This document shows positions 22,111 through 32,936 of a DNA stretch of 64,000 nucleotides, one piece after another; position 1 is the first letter of the stretch; each line of letters begins with the position of its first letter. The position numbers and the translations under genes are program-made. The stretch covers positions 124,001 through 188,000 of the forward strand of contig DASYHQ010000061.1 of assembly GCA_035998445.1 (NCBI GenBank), in the 5' to 3' direction. This DNA is from Tepidisphaeraceae bacterium. GTDB taxonomy: Bacteria; Planctomycetota; Phycisphaerae; Tepidisphaerales; Tepidisphaeraceae. The notes under the pieces were generated by a model. The model was not told where the DNA came from. It did no database searches and saw only the letters and a program-made list of their open reading frames with translations.

Positions 22111-22376
22111 GCAACGAATCTCCCTATAGAAAACGCGGTGCCAGAACCAAGATTGGTCGAGAATTTTCGCGGAAGCCGCGTTTCCCGCTGAATAACTCAT
22201 GATTTGTCGACTCGCTCGCGCCGCAGTGCCAGTGGAAGGCGCGATGTGCATCGCGCGGTTCTTCGTCAATCAGGGTGCCGGTCGCCCAGAGATTGGGCAG
22301 ACGATGCGCGCTTGTCGAATGTGCCGGTATTTCAGGCGTCTTGAAGGGGTTTCCCCGCAACTCTATGATTCTCGCC

Positions 22377-23405
22377 ATGGTCGACAAAGCATTTCGCGTC
22401 GCGGTGGTGGGTTGCGGTAGCATGGCTAACGCGTGGGTCGAGACGGCACGGAAGGCACCGGGCGTGGAGGTGGTCGCGCTGATCGACCTGCGCCCCGAAG
22501 CCGCGCGCGCGATGGCCGACAAGCATGGCTTGCCGCACTCGGTGGTCTACGGCTCGCTCGCCGAGGCCGCGGCGACGGCCAAGCCGAACCTCGTGTTCGA
22601 CGTGACGATCCCCGATGCCCACGAGCGCGTCGTCACCGAGGCCCTGCGGCTCGGTTGCGACGTGCTCGGCGAGAAGCCGCTGTCGACCAGCATCGAGTCC
22701 GCCCGCCGAATGGTCGCCACGGCACAGGAGACTGGCCGCATGTACGCGGTCATGCAGAACCAGCGCTACAGCTCACGCGCCGTGGCGGCGCGCGACTTCA
22801 TCAAATCGGGTCGCATCGGATCGCTCGACGAGTTCCATGGCGAGATGTACCTCGGGCCGCACTTCGGTGGCTTTCGCGAGGAGATGCCGTACCCGCTGAT
22901 CGTCGACATGCTCATCCACCTGTTCGACAAGGCCCGCTTCATGTCGGGCACCGACCCGGTCAGCGTCTACTGCCACTCGTTCAACCCAAAGCACAGCTGG
23001 TACAAGGGCGACGCCAGCTGCGTCGCGATCTTCGAGATGACCGGCGGCGTCGTCTTCAGCTTCCGCGCCAGCTGGTGTGCCGAGGGCCTGCCGGCCGACT
23101 GGGGCGGCGAGTGGCGCTTCATCGGCGCCGAAGGCACGATGAAGTGGGACACGCAGGGCCTGCGCGCCCAGGCCCGCAAGCCCGACGGCAAGCGCGAGTT
23201 CATGTACGAGATGGAAGACATCGCGATCCCGGAGACCGAGATGCCGCTGCAAGGCCACCCGGCGTTCATCACCGATGGCTTGGCCGCTCTGCGCGAGGGC
23301 CGCGCGCCGCAGACGGTCTGCACCGACAACATCAAGAGCCTCGCAATGGTCGAGGCCGCGGTGAAGAGCGCCAAGCAGGGGGCGAAGGTGAAGGTCGAGT
23401 GGTAG
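22377..23405 (+). CDS. Gfo/Idh/MocA family oxidoreductase
   Basis: 342 residues. The Rossmann nucleotide-binding start is FRVAVVGCGSMANAW (6-20), and the catalytic-domain signature GEKPLSTSIESAR (98-110) includes the conserved lysine. The C-terminal substrate domain has HSWYKGDASCVAIFEMTGG. Such enzymes oxidise or reduce sugars and related polyols with NAD(P). I use ATG 22377 (MVDKAFRVAVV); the frame extends upstream to 22275 without family similarity. No operon partner in the same direction gives the substrate. Confidence 0.9.
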   Translation: MVDKAFRVAVVGCGSMANAWVETARKAPGVEVVALIDLRPEAARAMADKHGLPHSVVYGSLAEAAATAKPNLVFDVTIPDAHERVVTEALRLGCDVLGEKPLSTSIESARRMVATAQETGRMYAVMQNQRYSSRAVAARDFIKSGRIGSLDEFHGEMYLGPHFGGFREEMPYPLIVDMLIHLFDKARFMSGTDPVSVYCHSFNPKHSWYKGDASCVAIFEMTGGVVFSFRASWCAEGLPADWGGEWRFIGAEGTMKWDTQGLRAQARKPDGKREFMYEMEDIAIPETEMPLQGHPAFITDGLAALREGRAPQTVCTDNIKSLAMVEAAVKSAKQGAKVKVEW

Positions 23406-23476
23406 GGTCGCAACGGCCCGGGGGGCGGGGGATCTTCCCGGCGTCACGAAACGTCAGAGGGGGGCGAGGCACCGTT

Positions 23477-23593
23477 CCCCCTCTCCCGGTACCCCGGGGG
23501 AAGGCTGGGGAGGGGGCGCTCCGGCTATTCAAGTGTACTGCGTCGGGCGGAAGCCCCCTCCCCTACCCTCCCCCGGGGTACCGGGAGAGGGGG
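23477..23593. repeat. Family E palindromic element
   Basis: CCCCCTCTCCCGGTACCCCG at the left and CGGGGTACCGGGAGAGGGGG at the right. Intergenic counterpart of the insert in valS at 3124-3235. Confidence 0.94.
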
Positions 23594-23645
23594 ATCACGA
23601 TCGGCTCGTATAAGCTGACCGACTACCCACCAAACCGCGTTGTAT

Positions 23646-23855
23646 GTCACGTTAACGGCGTGGGAGGTCACGAAAACCCGATGTGCCGTCACGTTTCATG
23701 CATGCGCGGTCACGTTTCATGCATGCGGAGTCACGTTGCATGCATGTTGTGTCACGTTTGATGCATGCAAAGTCACGTTACATCGAGTTTTCGTGACATC
23801 GCATGCATGAAACGTGACACAACATGCCTCCCGCGTGACGTCGCAGGCATCGGCG
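23646..23855. repeat. Array of ten sites at exact 21-bp spacing (GTCAC / GTGAC)
   Basis: GTCAC begins at 23646, 23667, 23688, 23709, 23730, 23751 and 23772; GTGAC begins at 23793, 23814 and 23835, keeping the same 21-bp register. The best units read GTCACGTTTCATGCATG plus four variable bases and contain the palindrome CATGCATG. The last part is largely an inverted copy of the second and third units. Lies 143 bp before the next gene start, at 23983. Confidence 0.93.
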
Positions 23856-23982
23856 AGACGTCCGTGCAACGCGATCGGCGGACGCGATGGTGATCGAGCG
23901 CCATCTCAAGCGGCGGGTGTTTCAGACGATGTGCGATCGCCGCGGCATAGGTCAACTTAACCTTCTGCGGTACGCTTTCAGC

Positions 23983-25503
23983 ATGACGGCCACGCAACGA
24001 ATCGTTTCCCGCACCACAGCCATCTGCATCTGCACGCTCGTCCTCTGCTGGGCCTTCGGGCTCGCCCCCTTGCCCGCCCGTGCCCAGGCCGCTGCCGCGC
24101 CAGCGGTGAAGTACAAGATCGGCCAGCTTGACCCCGCCATCACCGAAAGTTCCGGCATCGTCGCAAGTCGGCGGCATCCCGGCGTGTTCTGGACGCACGA
24201 CGACAGCGGCAACGCGCCGCGCATCTTCGCGGTGAAGCAAGACGGCACGCTGCTGGCGACGTACACGATCGGTGCGAAAAACGTCGACTGGGAGGACATC
24301 GCGATCGACGATGACGGTCACCTGTACATCGGTGACATCGGCAACAACGCCCGCCGGCGCGATCGCGGGCCGGCGGTGTACCAGATCGACGAGCCTGACC
24401 CCAGCGTGCCCGTGCCCGCGGGCGCGCCGGCGCTGCGGGTGAAGGCGCGGTACCCGCTTGCGTACCCGGCCGACCCGTTCGACGCCGAGGCATTGTTCGT
24501 CTGGCAGGATCATGGCTACATCGTGTCGAAGCAGCGCGACGCGGCCGTGGCGCAGGTGCTGCGGTTCACATTGGCCGCGCCCAAGCCGGTGCCACAACGG
24601 ATGGAAGCGGTGGCCGATTTGGCGTTGCGCACGCCCGTGACGGCCGCGGACATGTCGGCCGACGGGAAGGAACTGATGGTGCTGACGGTCTTCGGGCCGA
24701 ACCGGTACGTGGTGAACGGCGACCCCGCCAAGGCCGCAACCGTGCCGCCGCGCAGCGTGATGTTCCTGCACCCGAACATGGAGGCCGCCACGCTCGTGCC
24801 CGACGGTGTGCTGGCGACCACCGAGCGCCGTGACATCCTGCTGTTCGACAACGCCGCGTTCGACGGCCCTCGGGCCGGGCAGGGCGAGCCGGCCAAGCGC
24901 ATCGCGATCGCAGCCGCAACGATGCCGATCACGGTCGACGGGGCGCTTGACGACTGGACCGACCCCGCCACCCGGCAAGCCTTGTCCAGCGATCCCACCG
25001 ACGCGCCCGACGCCGCCGCCGCCAAACTGTGGCTCGCCTGGCGGCCAGGGGGCCTGTACGTTGCCGCCCGCGTGCCACGCGGTGATCCGTCGGCATTGTT
25101 GACCGAGTGGTTCGGCGGTGACGCGATCGAGATCTTCGTCGGCCGACACGCGATCGACCGCCCTGCAGAATACGGAGCGGGCGACGACCGCTGTTACATC
25201 GGGTTCGCGCCACTACCAGACAAGGGCCGCGGCGCCGTCGTGCTGAAGTGGCCACGACGGTCCTCACCGCCCGTCGATGCACAGGTTGCCGGGCAAGTGA
25301 ATGCCGATGGGAACTATGATGTTGAAGCGTTTCTGCCCGCCACGGCAATCGTTGCGGGCGACCCGCTGACCACGGGCCGCACGCTGCGATTGGAAGTGTC
25401 GCTGCTGGCCCGCCGGCCACGTGGGAACTGGTATCTCAGCGCCGCGAACGAAGCCGGCACGTGGATGAGCCCGCTGAAGTGGACCATCGCCACGTTGAAG
25501 TGA
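23983..25503 (+). CDS. Secreted propeller-like protein with C-terminal CBM9-like domain
   Basis: 506 residues. Signal peptide MTATQRIVSRTTAICICTLV with cleavage probably near PARAQA. Residues about 45-300 are beta-rich with ESSGIVASRRHPGVFWTHDD, DWEDIAIDDDGHLYIGDIGN and similar strands, like SdiA-regulated/esterase-like propellers. From about residue 315 the protein resembles a family 9 carbohydrate-binding module: ITVDGALDDW, LWLAWRPGGLYVAARV, GGDAIEIFVG and a final WYLSAANEAGTWMSPLKW. It probably binds or processes extracellular carbohydrate or protein. I use ATG 23983; the frame extends upstream to 23887 but the signal peptide starts here. The 21-bp array lies just upstream. Confidence 0.75.
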   Translation: MTATQRIVSRTTAICICTLVLCWAFGLAPLPARAQAAAAPAVKYKIGQLDPAITESSGIVASRRHPGVFWTHDDSGNAPRIFAVKQDGTLLATYTIGAKNVDWEDIAIDDDGHLYIGDIGNNARRRDRGPAVYQIDEPDPSVPVPAGAPALRVKARYPLAYPADPFDAEALFVWQDHGYIVSKQRDAAVAQVLRFTLAAPKPVPQRMEAVADLALRTPVTAADMSADGKELMVLTVFGPNRYVVNGDPAKAATVPPRSVMFLHPNMEAATLVPDGVLATTERRDILLFDNAAFDGPRAGQGEPAKRIAIAAATMPITVDGALDDWTDPATRQALSSDPTDAPDAAAAKLWLAWRPGGLYVAARVPRGDPSALLTEWFGGDAIEIFVGRHAIDRPAEYGAGDDRCYIGFAPLPDKGRGAVVLKWPRRSSPPVDAQVAGQVNADGNYDVEAFLPATAIVAGDPLTTGRTLRLEVSLLARRPRGNWYLSAANEAGTWMSPLKWTIATLK

Positions 25504-31500: not shown

Positions 31501-31517
31501 GACAGTGCCGGGTGCCG

Positions 31518-31713
31518 GGTGCCACGGTTTGGTACTCCAAGCCGTGCTTGAGGCCGTGGGGAAAGACACGGCACGGAGTACCGTACCGTGGCACCCGGCG
31601 GGGCGGGGCGGGACGCGGCGGGCACGGGATTCCGGGCAGTGGGTCCGTTTGAAGTGGCACGGGTTTCCAACCCGTGTTCTGGAGCGAAGACACGGGTTGA
31701 AAACCCGTGCCAC
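31518..31713. repeat. Two family F palindromes in tandem upstream of the GH16 remnant
   Basis: 31518-31596: GGTGCCACGGTTTGGTACTC ... with inverse GTACCGTACCGTGGCACC. 31655-31713: GTGGCACGGGTTTCCAACCC and inverse. The second is flanked by a further inverted pair (AGTGGGTCCGTTTGAA / TTGAAACTGACCCACT). Confidence 0.88.
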
Positions 31714-31758
31714 GGGGGAAGGTGTTGAAACTGACCCACTACCGGATTCCGATCCGGG

Positions 31759-32010
31759 GGCAGGGGATTCTATTTCATGGGCACGGAACGTCGTTCCATG
31801 GACACGGAATGGCGTTCGGAGGGTACGGAATCCCATTCCATAGGCACGGAACGTCGTTCCGGGGGCACGGGGTTCCATTCCGCGGGCATGGAACGTCGTT
31901 CCGGCGGCACGGGGTTCCGTTCCGCGGGCACGGAATGGCGTTCCGGGGGCACGAGGTGGCGTTCCGTGGGCACGGGGTGGCGTTCCGGGGGCATGGGGTG
32001 GCGGGTCGGG
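31759..32010. repeat. Array of about twelve 21-bp units each holding a GGAAC...GTTCC palindrome
   Basis: Units start at 31759 (degenerate), 31780, 31801, 31822, 31843, 31864, 31885, 31906, 31927, 31948, 31969 and 31990, without a single indel. Consensus GGCACGGAACGTCGTTCCGG plus G. Neighbouring units differ at the palindrome but often keep its symmetry (GGAATGGCGTTCC, GGAATCCCATTCC). The last two units are G-rich and degenerate. Long frames through it on both strands only encode heptapeptide repeats. Confidence 0.94.
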
Positions 32011-32249
32011 TGGGGGGCGATGGGGCTGGGGGGCGGTGGGGGCGGTTATTCTGGGACGGGGTGGGGGCGTGGCGACGGGCGGGGGGATTTGGTTGCGGCG
32101 GCGCTTCAGTCGCGCGGCGGGCGGGCCGATGGAAGGGGGGTGGGGCGATCGTCGTGATCGCCGTCGGCGGCGCGGCTGGTCGTGTGACCGGCGATCGCGC
32201 GGATCGGGCCGGGCGGCGGGCGGTGCCCAACGTGGAACGGAGTCGAATC

Positions 32250-32936
32250 ATGGGAATGGTGCCCGAGAGGAAGCAGGAGAAGATCGCGTTCTTCGAGACG
32301 CACGTGCAGGCGTTGCTGACGAACGCCACGGCGATCGGGACGAGCACGGCGGCGGTGACGGACCTGCAGACGAAGACGCAGGGCGCGCGCACGCTGTATC
32401 AGGCGCAGCTGTCGGCGCAGGCGGCGGCGAAGCTGGCGGTGCAGGCGGCCGACCAGGCGGTGGAGCAGATGGCGATCGCCGGCGCGGCGGTCATCGAGCA
32501 GGTGCGGGCCAAGGCGCGCATGTCGGGCGACGGCATCTACACGCTGGCGGGCCTGCCGGCGCCGGCCACGCCCGCGGCGGTGGGCAACCCCGGCGAGCCG
32601 ACGCAGTTGAAGGTGACGCTGAACACCAACGGCTCGCTCGACCTGCGGTTCGCCTGCAAGAACCCGGCGGGCTGCCACGGCGTGATCTACCAGGTCTACC
32701 GCAGGGTGGCGTCGACCGGCGAGTACCACTACATCGGCGGCAGCGGGCAGCGGTCGTTCACCGACACCACGGTGCCGGCGGGCGTGCCGAGCGTGATGTA
32801 CCAGATCCAGGCGACGCGCTCGACGGCGGTCGGCAAGGTCGGCGAGTTCGTCGTGAACTTCGGCGTGACCCCCACCGGCATGACGACGACGGTGAGCAGC
32901 GCCAACACCGGCACGCCGGCGAAGATCGCGGCGTAG
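32250..32936 (+). CDS. Protein of unknown function with coiled-coil and fibronectin-like parts
   Basis: 228 residues (MGMVPERKQEKIAFFETHVQ...), no signal peptide. Residues about 1-95 are a long Ala/Gln-rich helix, probably a coiled coil (AQLSAQAAAKLAVQAADQAV). Residues about 125-225 look like a fibronectin type III-like sandwich (VTLNTNGSLDLRFACKNP, YQVYRRVASTGEYHYIG, SVMYQIQATRSTAVGKVGEF). I do not recognise a named family. A strong terminator follows. The start at 32250 is the first ATG where coding character begins; the frame upstream passes through the 21-bp array. Confidence 0.7.
   Translation: MGMVPERKQEKIAFFETHVQALLTNATAIGTSTAAVTDLQTKTQGARTLYQAQLSAQAAAKLAVQAADQAVEQMAIAGAAVIEQVRAKARMSGDGIYTLAGLPAPATPAAVGNPGEPTQLKVTLNTNGSLDLRFACKNPAGCHGVIYQVYRRVASTGEYHYIGGSGQRSFTDTTVPAGVPSVMYQIQATRSTAVGKVGEFVVNFGVTPTGMTTTVSSANTGTPAKIAA

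Follow-up and report, generated by a model that had tools for sequence, protein, structure and literature searches.

Plasmid iterons are tandem sites spaced about two helical turns apart next to the gene for their Rep protein, and many of the arrays reported here likewise adjoin the gene of a possible binder. They differ in occupying chromosomal contigs, at dozens of paralogous loci with unrelated motifs, and the associated protein family has no Rep or initiator domain, its predicted fold being a helical hairpin plus an Fn3 domain. The arrays are scattered along these contigs, and a plasmid search with one family member gave no match. ParR/parC centromeres also consist of a helically phased array upstream of a small protein gene, with a possible filament on the DNA, but here the units are palindromic, span two turns, and recur at many loci per genome. 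No ParM- or ParA-like partner occurred among the first 25 of the 78 Pfam families of 97 flanking open reading frames (ORFs), and within that scope a partition reading is not supported. REP/BIME elements with their RAYT proteins are palindromic intergenic repeats dispersed in a genome at nonorthologous sites, with solo copies and a tie to a protein family, all of which is seen here as well. The present arrays differ in their fixed period of 20 to 22 bp, their private sequences, and a protein family that has no Y1 (HUH) transposase or other Pfam domain. Multi-site operators (cooperative repressor arrays) resemble the present arrays in having palindromic sites along a single face of the helix ahead of genes, but they usually comprise 2 to 4 sites with one motif per regulator, whereas here there are dozens of motifs with rapid turnover. 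CRISPR arrays, with their conserved repeat, unique spacers, and adjacent cas genes, differ from those described here, in which the 20- to 22-bp units are similar throughout and the flanking genes are diverse.

No known array system that we considered matches in all of its own defining features, and membership among iterons, REP/RAYT elements, and CRISPR arrays was rejected on these grounds. An initial annotation of the locus studied here had proposed a protein-binding array of operator, iteron, or partition type; the operator-type features (palindromic, phased, and upstream of a gene) stand, the iteron assignment was rejected, and the partition assignment is not supported by the flanking families listed.

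Two arrays in one window

The window is the whole 64,000-nucleotide stretch of Tepidisphaeraceae DNA that we analyzed. The array first reported in it and its surroundings comprise the following features:

22365 to 23405, + strand: Gfo/Idh/MocA oxidoreductase gene, upstream neighbor of the reported array
23646 to 23855, no strand: reported orphan 21-bp array, located by pattern search (palindrome P = 0.002)
23741 to 23828, no strand: internal fold-back with near-perfect inverted arms (RNA fold z = -6.2)
23887 to 25503, + strand: gene facing the reported array, with a likely start at 23983, a signal peptide, weak phytase-like/propeller similarity, and a CBM9-like C terminus

The sequence and a pattern search confirmed ten sites in one 21-bp register, as first described: seven GTCAC sites (starting at 23646, 23667, 23688, 23709, 23730, 23751, and 23772) followed by three GTGAC sites (23793, 23814, and 23835). 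The unit has two palindromic centers, GTSAC and CATGCATG, exactly 10.5 bp apart, and for this reason the register is kept across the orientation flip at 23793. With one mismatch allowed on both strands, the motif GTSAC-N4-SATGCAT-N5-GTSAC had 12 matches in the window against 0 expected. Tandem Repeats Finder called the middle part of the array alone (23681 to 23783). The end of the array, read earlier as an inverted copy, does form a fold-back, with near-perfect arms of about 27 nt (approximately 23741 to 23767 versus 23802 to 23828). The distance of 143 bp to the downstream gene is also right when measured to the ATG at 23983. That gene had been called secreted and propeller/CBM9-like; it has a signal peptide, and its Pfam matches (Phytase-like and CBM9) fall under the curated cutoffs. 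Just upstream of the array, a separate GC-rich inverted repeat (CCCCTCTCCCGGTACCCCGGGGG..., 23474 to 23596) is a dispersed palindromic repeat with a partial copy on contig C30.

Two arrays had gone unseen by the initial annotation. One is a twin of the reported array on contig C30 (2603 to 2835), with the same motif and a + to - flip that is likewise in register. The ends of this contig (L009; 1 to 140 and 3600 to 3718) are inverted copies that resemble the end of an IS481-like transposase, and the contig is probably bounded by insertion sequences. The other is a second 21-bp array in the window itself, of unrelated sequence, with its own surroundings:

31509 to 31722, no strand: pair of REP-like hairpin repeats (GGTGCCACGGTTTGGTACTCC..., GGCACGGGTTTCCAACCCGTG...) immediately preceding the second array
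31778 to 32003, no strand: second 21-bp array, family linked, with consensus GGCACGGAACGTCGTTCCGGG
32048 to 32061, + strand: tentative shared box (ATTCTGGGACGGGG) at the head of a G-rich leader, between the second array and the gene
32250 to 32936, + strand: array-linked family member of 228 amino acids (pI 9.3) with an N-terminal helical hairpin and a C-terminal Fn3 domain

As RNA, each of the two window arrays folds better than shuffled sequences (z = -6.2 and -3.9), as would be expected if transcribed palindromic units acted in the form of a long hairpin. However, any periodic palindromic DNA folds in this way, making the strong fold an automatic consequence, and a hairpin does not need a spacing of 20 to 22 bp. 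There was also no Rfam match at the gathering score, and we consider a role as RNA highly improbable.

A genome-wide class of two-turn arrays

The scan for 21-bp periodicity suggested in the initial annotation showed that the reported array is not unique, since arrays of 20 to 22 bp recur dozens-fold across the scanned genome. In a census of 1.64 Mb (28% of the 5.84-Mb genome), with the period not fixed beforehand, 33 of 36 intergenic tandem arrays had a period of 20, 21, 22, 40, or 42 bp, and each array had essentially its own unit sequence. Extrapolation to 5.84 Mb gives roughly 120 arrays. A lag scan of 486 kb yielded 13 arrays at lag 21, with units nearly all different and one array inside a glutamine-rich coding region, and essentially none at other lags except multiples. 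When 0.85 Mb was scanned for intergenic arrays at ≥58% identity, 11 were found at lag 21 and three at lag 20, and nearly all remaining nonmultiple lags had none, one, or two. A search for phased ATGCAT returned further 21-bp arrays in the same genome with different partner sequences. The arrays have about 5 to 30 units; most face at least one gene start, and some lie upstream of unrelated core genes. Two related 20-bp arrays (C18:80904-81307 and C18:179174-179706) have two alternating unit types and a 40-bp higher-order period. In G011, intergenic-looking arrays have periods of 18 (L079:12883), 11 (L077:115), and 19 bp (L076:12559) as well as 21 bp (L077:447), and the period rule may be looser there.

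Palindromy was a general feature: 42 of 58 arrays from this and related genomes exceeded their column-shuffled versions (P < 0.05; Fisher P = 6e-45). Conservation was uneven among the columns of the unit in 40 of 57 arrays. At C18:155075, for example, about ten columns are kept, including the palindrome GTCGAC, and most others vary.

Because a 21-bp unit corresponds to seven codons and some reading frames are open in most arrays, we also considered that the arrays encode heptapeptide-repeat proteins, which the initial annotation had named as a finding that would count against it; one array (C61:306083) at first resembled amphipathic heptads. This reading conflicts with the existence of 20- and 22-bp arrays and with the pattern of variability, which was codon periodic in only 1 of 49 arrays (P < 0.05). 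Open frames were also fewer in the arrays (mean, 3.8 of 6) than in perfect repeats of the shuffled unit (4.9). Tandem arrays inside genes have codon-multiple periods instead, and two period-21 arrays filed as genic turned out to be upstream arrays overlapped by spurious ORFs. Coding is thus scarcely credible; it was rejected and is largely refuted as a general explanation. The periods of 20 to 22 bp and the lack of a codon period in the variability indicate helical rather than codon phasing, in line with the helical phasing and site-specific constraint first proposed for the reported array alone. The arrays look like unrelated minisatellites yet obey one physical rule: a palindromic unit of two helical turns.

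Linkage to a family of Fn3 proteins

Several arrays, including the second one in the window, lie upstream of paralogous genes. The encoded proteins are about 230 amino acids long and generally basic, with a predicted helical hairpin and an Fn3 domain. They matched no known family in Pfam, NCBIfam, or PHROG below an E value of 0.01, and no transposase or nuclease domain was found in them. An AlphaFold2 model of a family protein, predicted with confidence (pLDDT 91), shows a long helical hairpin, with the Fn3 domain at the C terminus. The pI was at least 9.1 in all 21 full members tested from this genome, versus 28% of controls above 9; across all family loci only 48% were above 9, the proteins of other genomes being less basic.

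A profile search of this genome gave 25 family matches, 24 of them testable for arrays. An upstream array with a period of 20 to 22 bp, or double that, preceded 21 of the 24 family genes in this genome and 18 of 32 in foreign genomes. Any periodicity at the same level was shown by 22 of 226 controls with wide upstream gaps, a set that itself contains family genes and array neighbors. Over all loci across Planctomycetota, 52 of 74 family genes had an upstream array and about 30% had no detectable one. Although periods of 14 to 30 bp were allowed, the 52 linked arrays had periods of 21 (45 arrays), 20 (6 arrays), or 22 bp (1 array). The family is present in 51 of the 298 genomes sampled from the class; the named records are a Humisphaera MAG and a Phycisphaerales MAG. 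Other classes of the phylum also have it, and 21-bp arrays accompany it there too. Its distribution is patchy, with absence from 9 of 10 relatives that were searched again.

Plasmid and phage searches with one family protein found no match. A scan of viral contigs found one family locus (L269, an IMG/VR contig), which has no upstream array; the gene is flanked there by a type I methyltransferase on one side and a phage tail tape-measure-like ORF on the other. No neighboring gene is common to the family loci. At L154, L138, L159, L165, L209, and L269, family genes have CRISPR (Cas8e), TIR, OLD-like, or type I restriction genes as neighbors, and a CRISPR-like translation (a translated array) was seen near one family gene only (L154). 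A defense-island reading was rejected: hand-picked neighbors matched defense genes, and an unbiased set gave no clear enrichment. PADLOC matches were estimated at roughly a tenth of 97 flanking ORFs versus 1 to 3 of 24 control ORFs near polA.

At family-linked loci, taken here to be the founder type, the order is array, in many cases a TTATCGGACG-like box with a G-rich leader, and then the gene. In this genome, family-linked arrays show an enrichment of REP-like hairpins on their upstream side (11 of 21). The leader between array and gene has a GC skew of +0.41 versus -0.01 (P = 6e-14), which is weaker in other genomes. A box like wTTwTCGGACGkGG exceeded the 95% control level at 9 of 21 loci in a leave-one-out analysis. 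The box likewise adjoins about 8 of the 22 arrays classed as orphans, one of which (C5b:137004) is actually linked to a truncated family gene. These layout results are tentative, as the k-mers and the box seed were picked after viewing the same sequences.

The period and the motif behave differently with respect to the protein. Proteins whose arrays have period 20 group together on the protein tree (3 of 500 shuffles were as low), whereas the motifs are unrelated even in a fully supported clade of three paralogues from this genome that have period 20. Mean motif similarity was 0.37 for proteins more than 50% identical and 0.31 for distant ones, and proteins 60 to 86% identical had mostly unrelated motifs. 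Motif conservation tracking protein identity was therefore tested and not found; the array period is conserved while the array sequence turns over fast.

The arrays could be operators or enhancers read by other factors, either one per motif or a shared reader of the phasing, with the Fn3 protein being merely the controlled product and the repeat number tuning expression. That motifs do not follow protein identity agrees with this, as do the usual orientation toward gene starts, the arrays upstream of unrelated core genes, and the promoter-like box and G-rich leader after many arrays. Such factors would not account for the strong phylum-wide linkage to a single protein family or for the clustering of period 20 by protein clade, and we regard this explanation as unlikely, though a serious contender.

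Orphan arrays and their absence from relatives

The scanned part of the genome contains about 14 family-linked arrays and 21 orphans. Five orphans share their motif with a family-linked array at another place in their own genome (r = 0.76 to 0.94), for example L119/C18_132202 (0.94), L122/C18_318191 (0.93), L112/C18_80904 (0.89), and L123/C18_650343 (0.89); with permuted columns as the null, the 99.9% level was 0.58. About 16 of the 21 matched no family-linked array found. An orphan upstream of polA (C61:265818) resembles one orphan and one family-linked array of G010, and one motif occurs at different loci in G000 and G010. At L009:2972-3433 and C18:611430-611717, two orphans face small genes whose products are basic and proline rich and hold MTPAERQ/MTSTERT, possibly a second array-linked gene type.

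The reported array is itself an orphan, with no Fn3-family gene beside it, no box, and no G-rich leader. Its motif is absent from every other genome among the 298 of the class, and its same-motif relatives in its own genome are one orphan (on C30) and zero family-linked arrays. In five relatives from other genera, the region ahead of the homologous gene lacks it, so a conserved operator of this downstream gene is not supported and was rejected. Absence from close relatives together with period-breaking indels had been named as a refutation; the absence was found, and no such indels were seen. None of the 24 relatives examined has the polA array in front of its polA gene. Given these absences, the two orphan arrays tested look lineage specific.

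Lineage-specific orphans, the same motif at different loci in G000 and G010, the REP-like hairpins just upstream of about half of the family-linked arrays in this genome, and the fold-backs inside arrays would also suit selfish or mutational products of REP/MITE-like amplification or dispersal of two-turn units, in which the Fn3 gene accompanies the founder unit and no regulatory role is involved. Pure copying, however, should neither keep particular columns and palindromic cores while the spacers vary nor hold one period across a phylum, and the Fn3 family has no transposase or nuclease domain. We therefore think an origin of this kind quite unlikely.

Discussion

We tentatively favor, at a little less than an even chance, the interpretation that the reported array belongs, as an orphan copy, to a genome-wide class of two-turn arrays that would probably form operator-type lattices, with the Fn3 protein as the leading candidate binder. 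The founder type of array would lie in the upstream region of a gene from the one paralogous family of basic proteins with a helical hairpin and an Fn3 domain. A homodimer would recognize the palindromic core of the unit, and neighboring dimers would stack on one face of the helix. The phasing would then make binding cooperative, with control of the neighboring promoter as the result. The Fn3 protein itself would most likely be the binder, acting on its own array and on copies of the same motif elsewhere. In favor of this interpretation are the narrow range of periods, the linkage to the family, the palindromic and unevenly conserved units, the motifs shared between linked and orphan arrays, the grouping of period 20 on the protein tree, and the high pI of the family proteins in this genome. 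Its role is open to doubt because close paralogues have unrelated motifs. It also counts against this protein that DNA binding is not usual for the Fn3 fold and that Foldseek, given the model, matched generic Fn3 domains only. Further points against the interpretation are the roughly 30% of family genes with no detectable array, the less basic proteins of other genomes, the absence of the tested orphans at their loci in relatives, the lack of a common neighboring gene, and the many orphans (about 16 of 21) that match no family-linked array found. For the reported array, which has an orphan twin only and no family-linked partner, the binder is least certain.

A broader interpretation is possible, although we would sooner doubt than accept it. 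Fn3 paralogues across the phylum may each be paired with a private, fast-evolving array that conserves nothing but the two-turn spacing, making up a self-addressing DNA lattice system, regulatory or genome organizing, with rapid turnover of specificity. The linkage to one protein family suggests an undescribed DNA-and-protein system. We found no description of such arrays or of a copying process of this kind in the open-access literature searched, and to our knowledge neither a self-binding array system nor a copying process that measures two helical turns has been described.

Dozens of arrays per genome are now tied to a protein family that the searched family libraries do not contain. If the proteins bind the arrays, a single genome would hold a large set of paralogous protein-DNA pairs with rapidly changing motifs. 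If they do not, a copying process able to measure out two turns of the helix would be no less surprising. The arrays, if the favored interpretation is true, may represent a new layer of gene control or chromosome organization in Planctomycetota.
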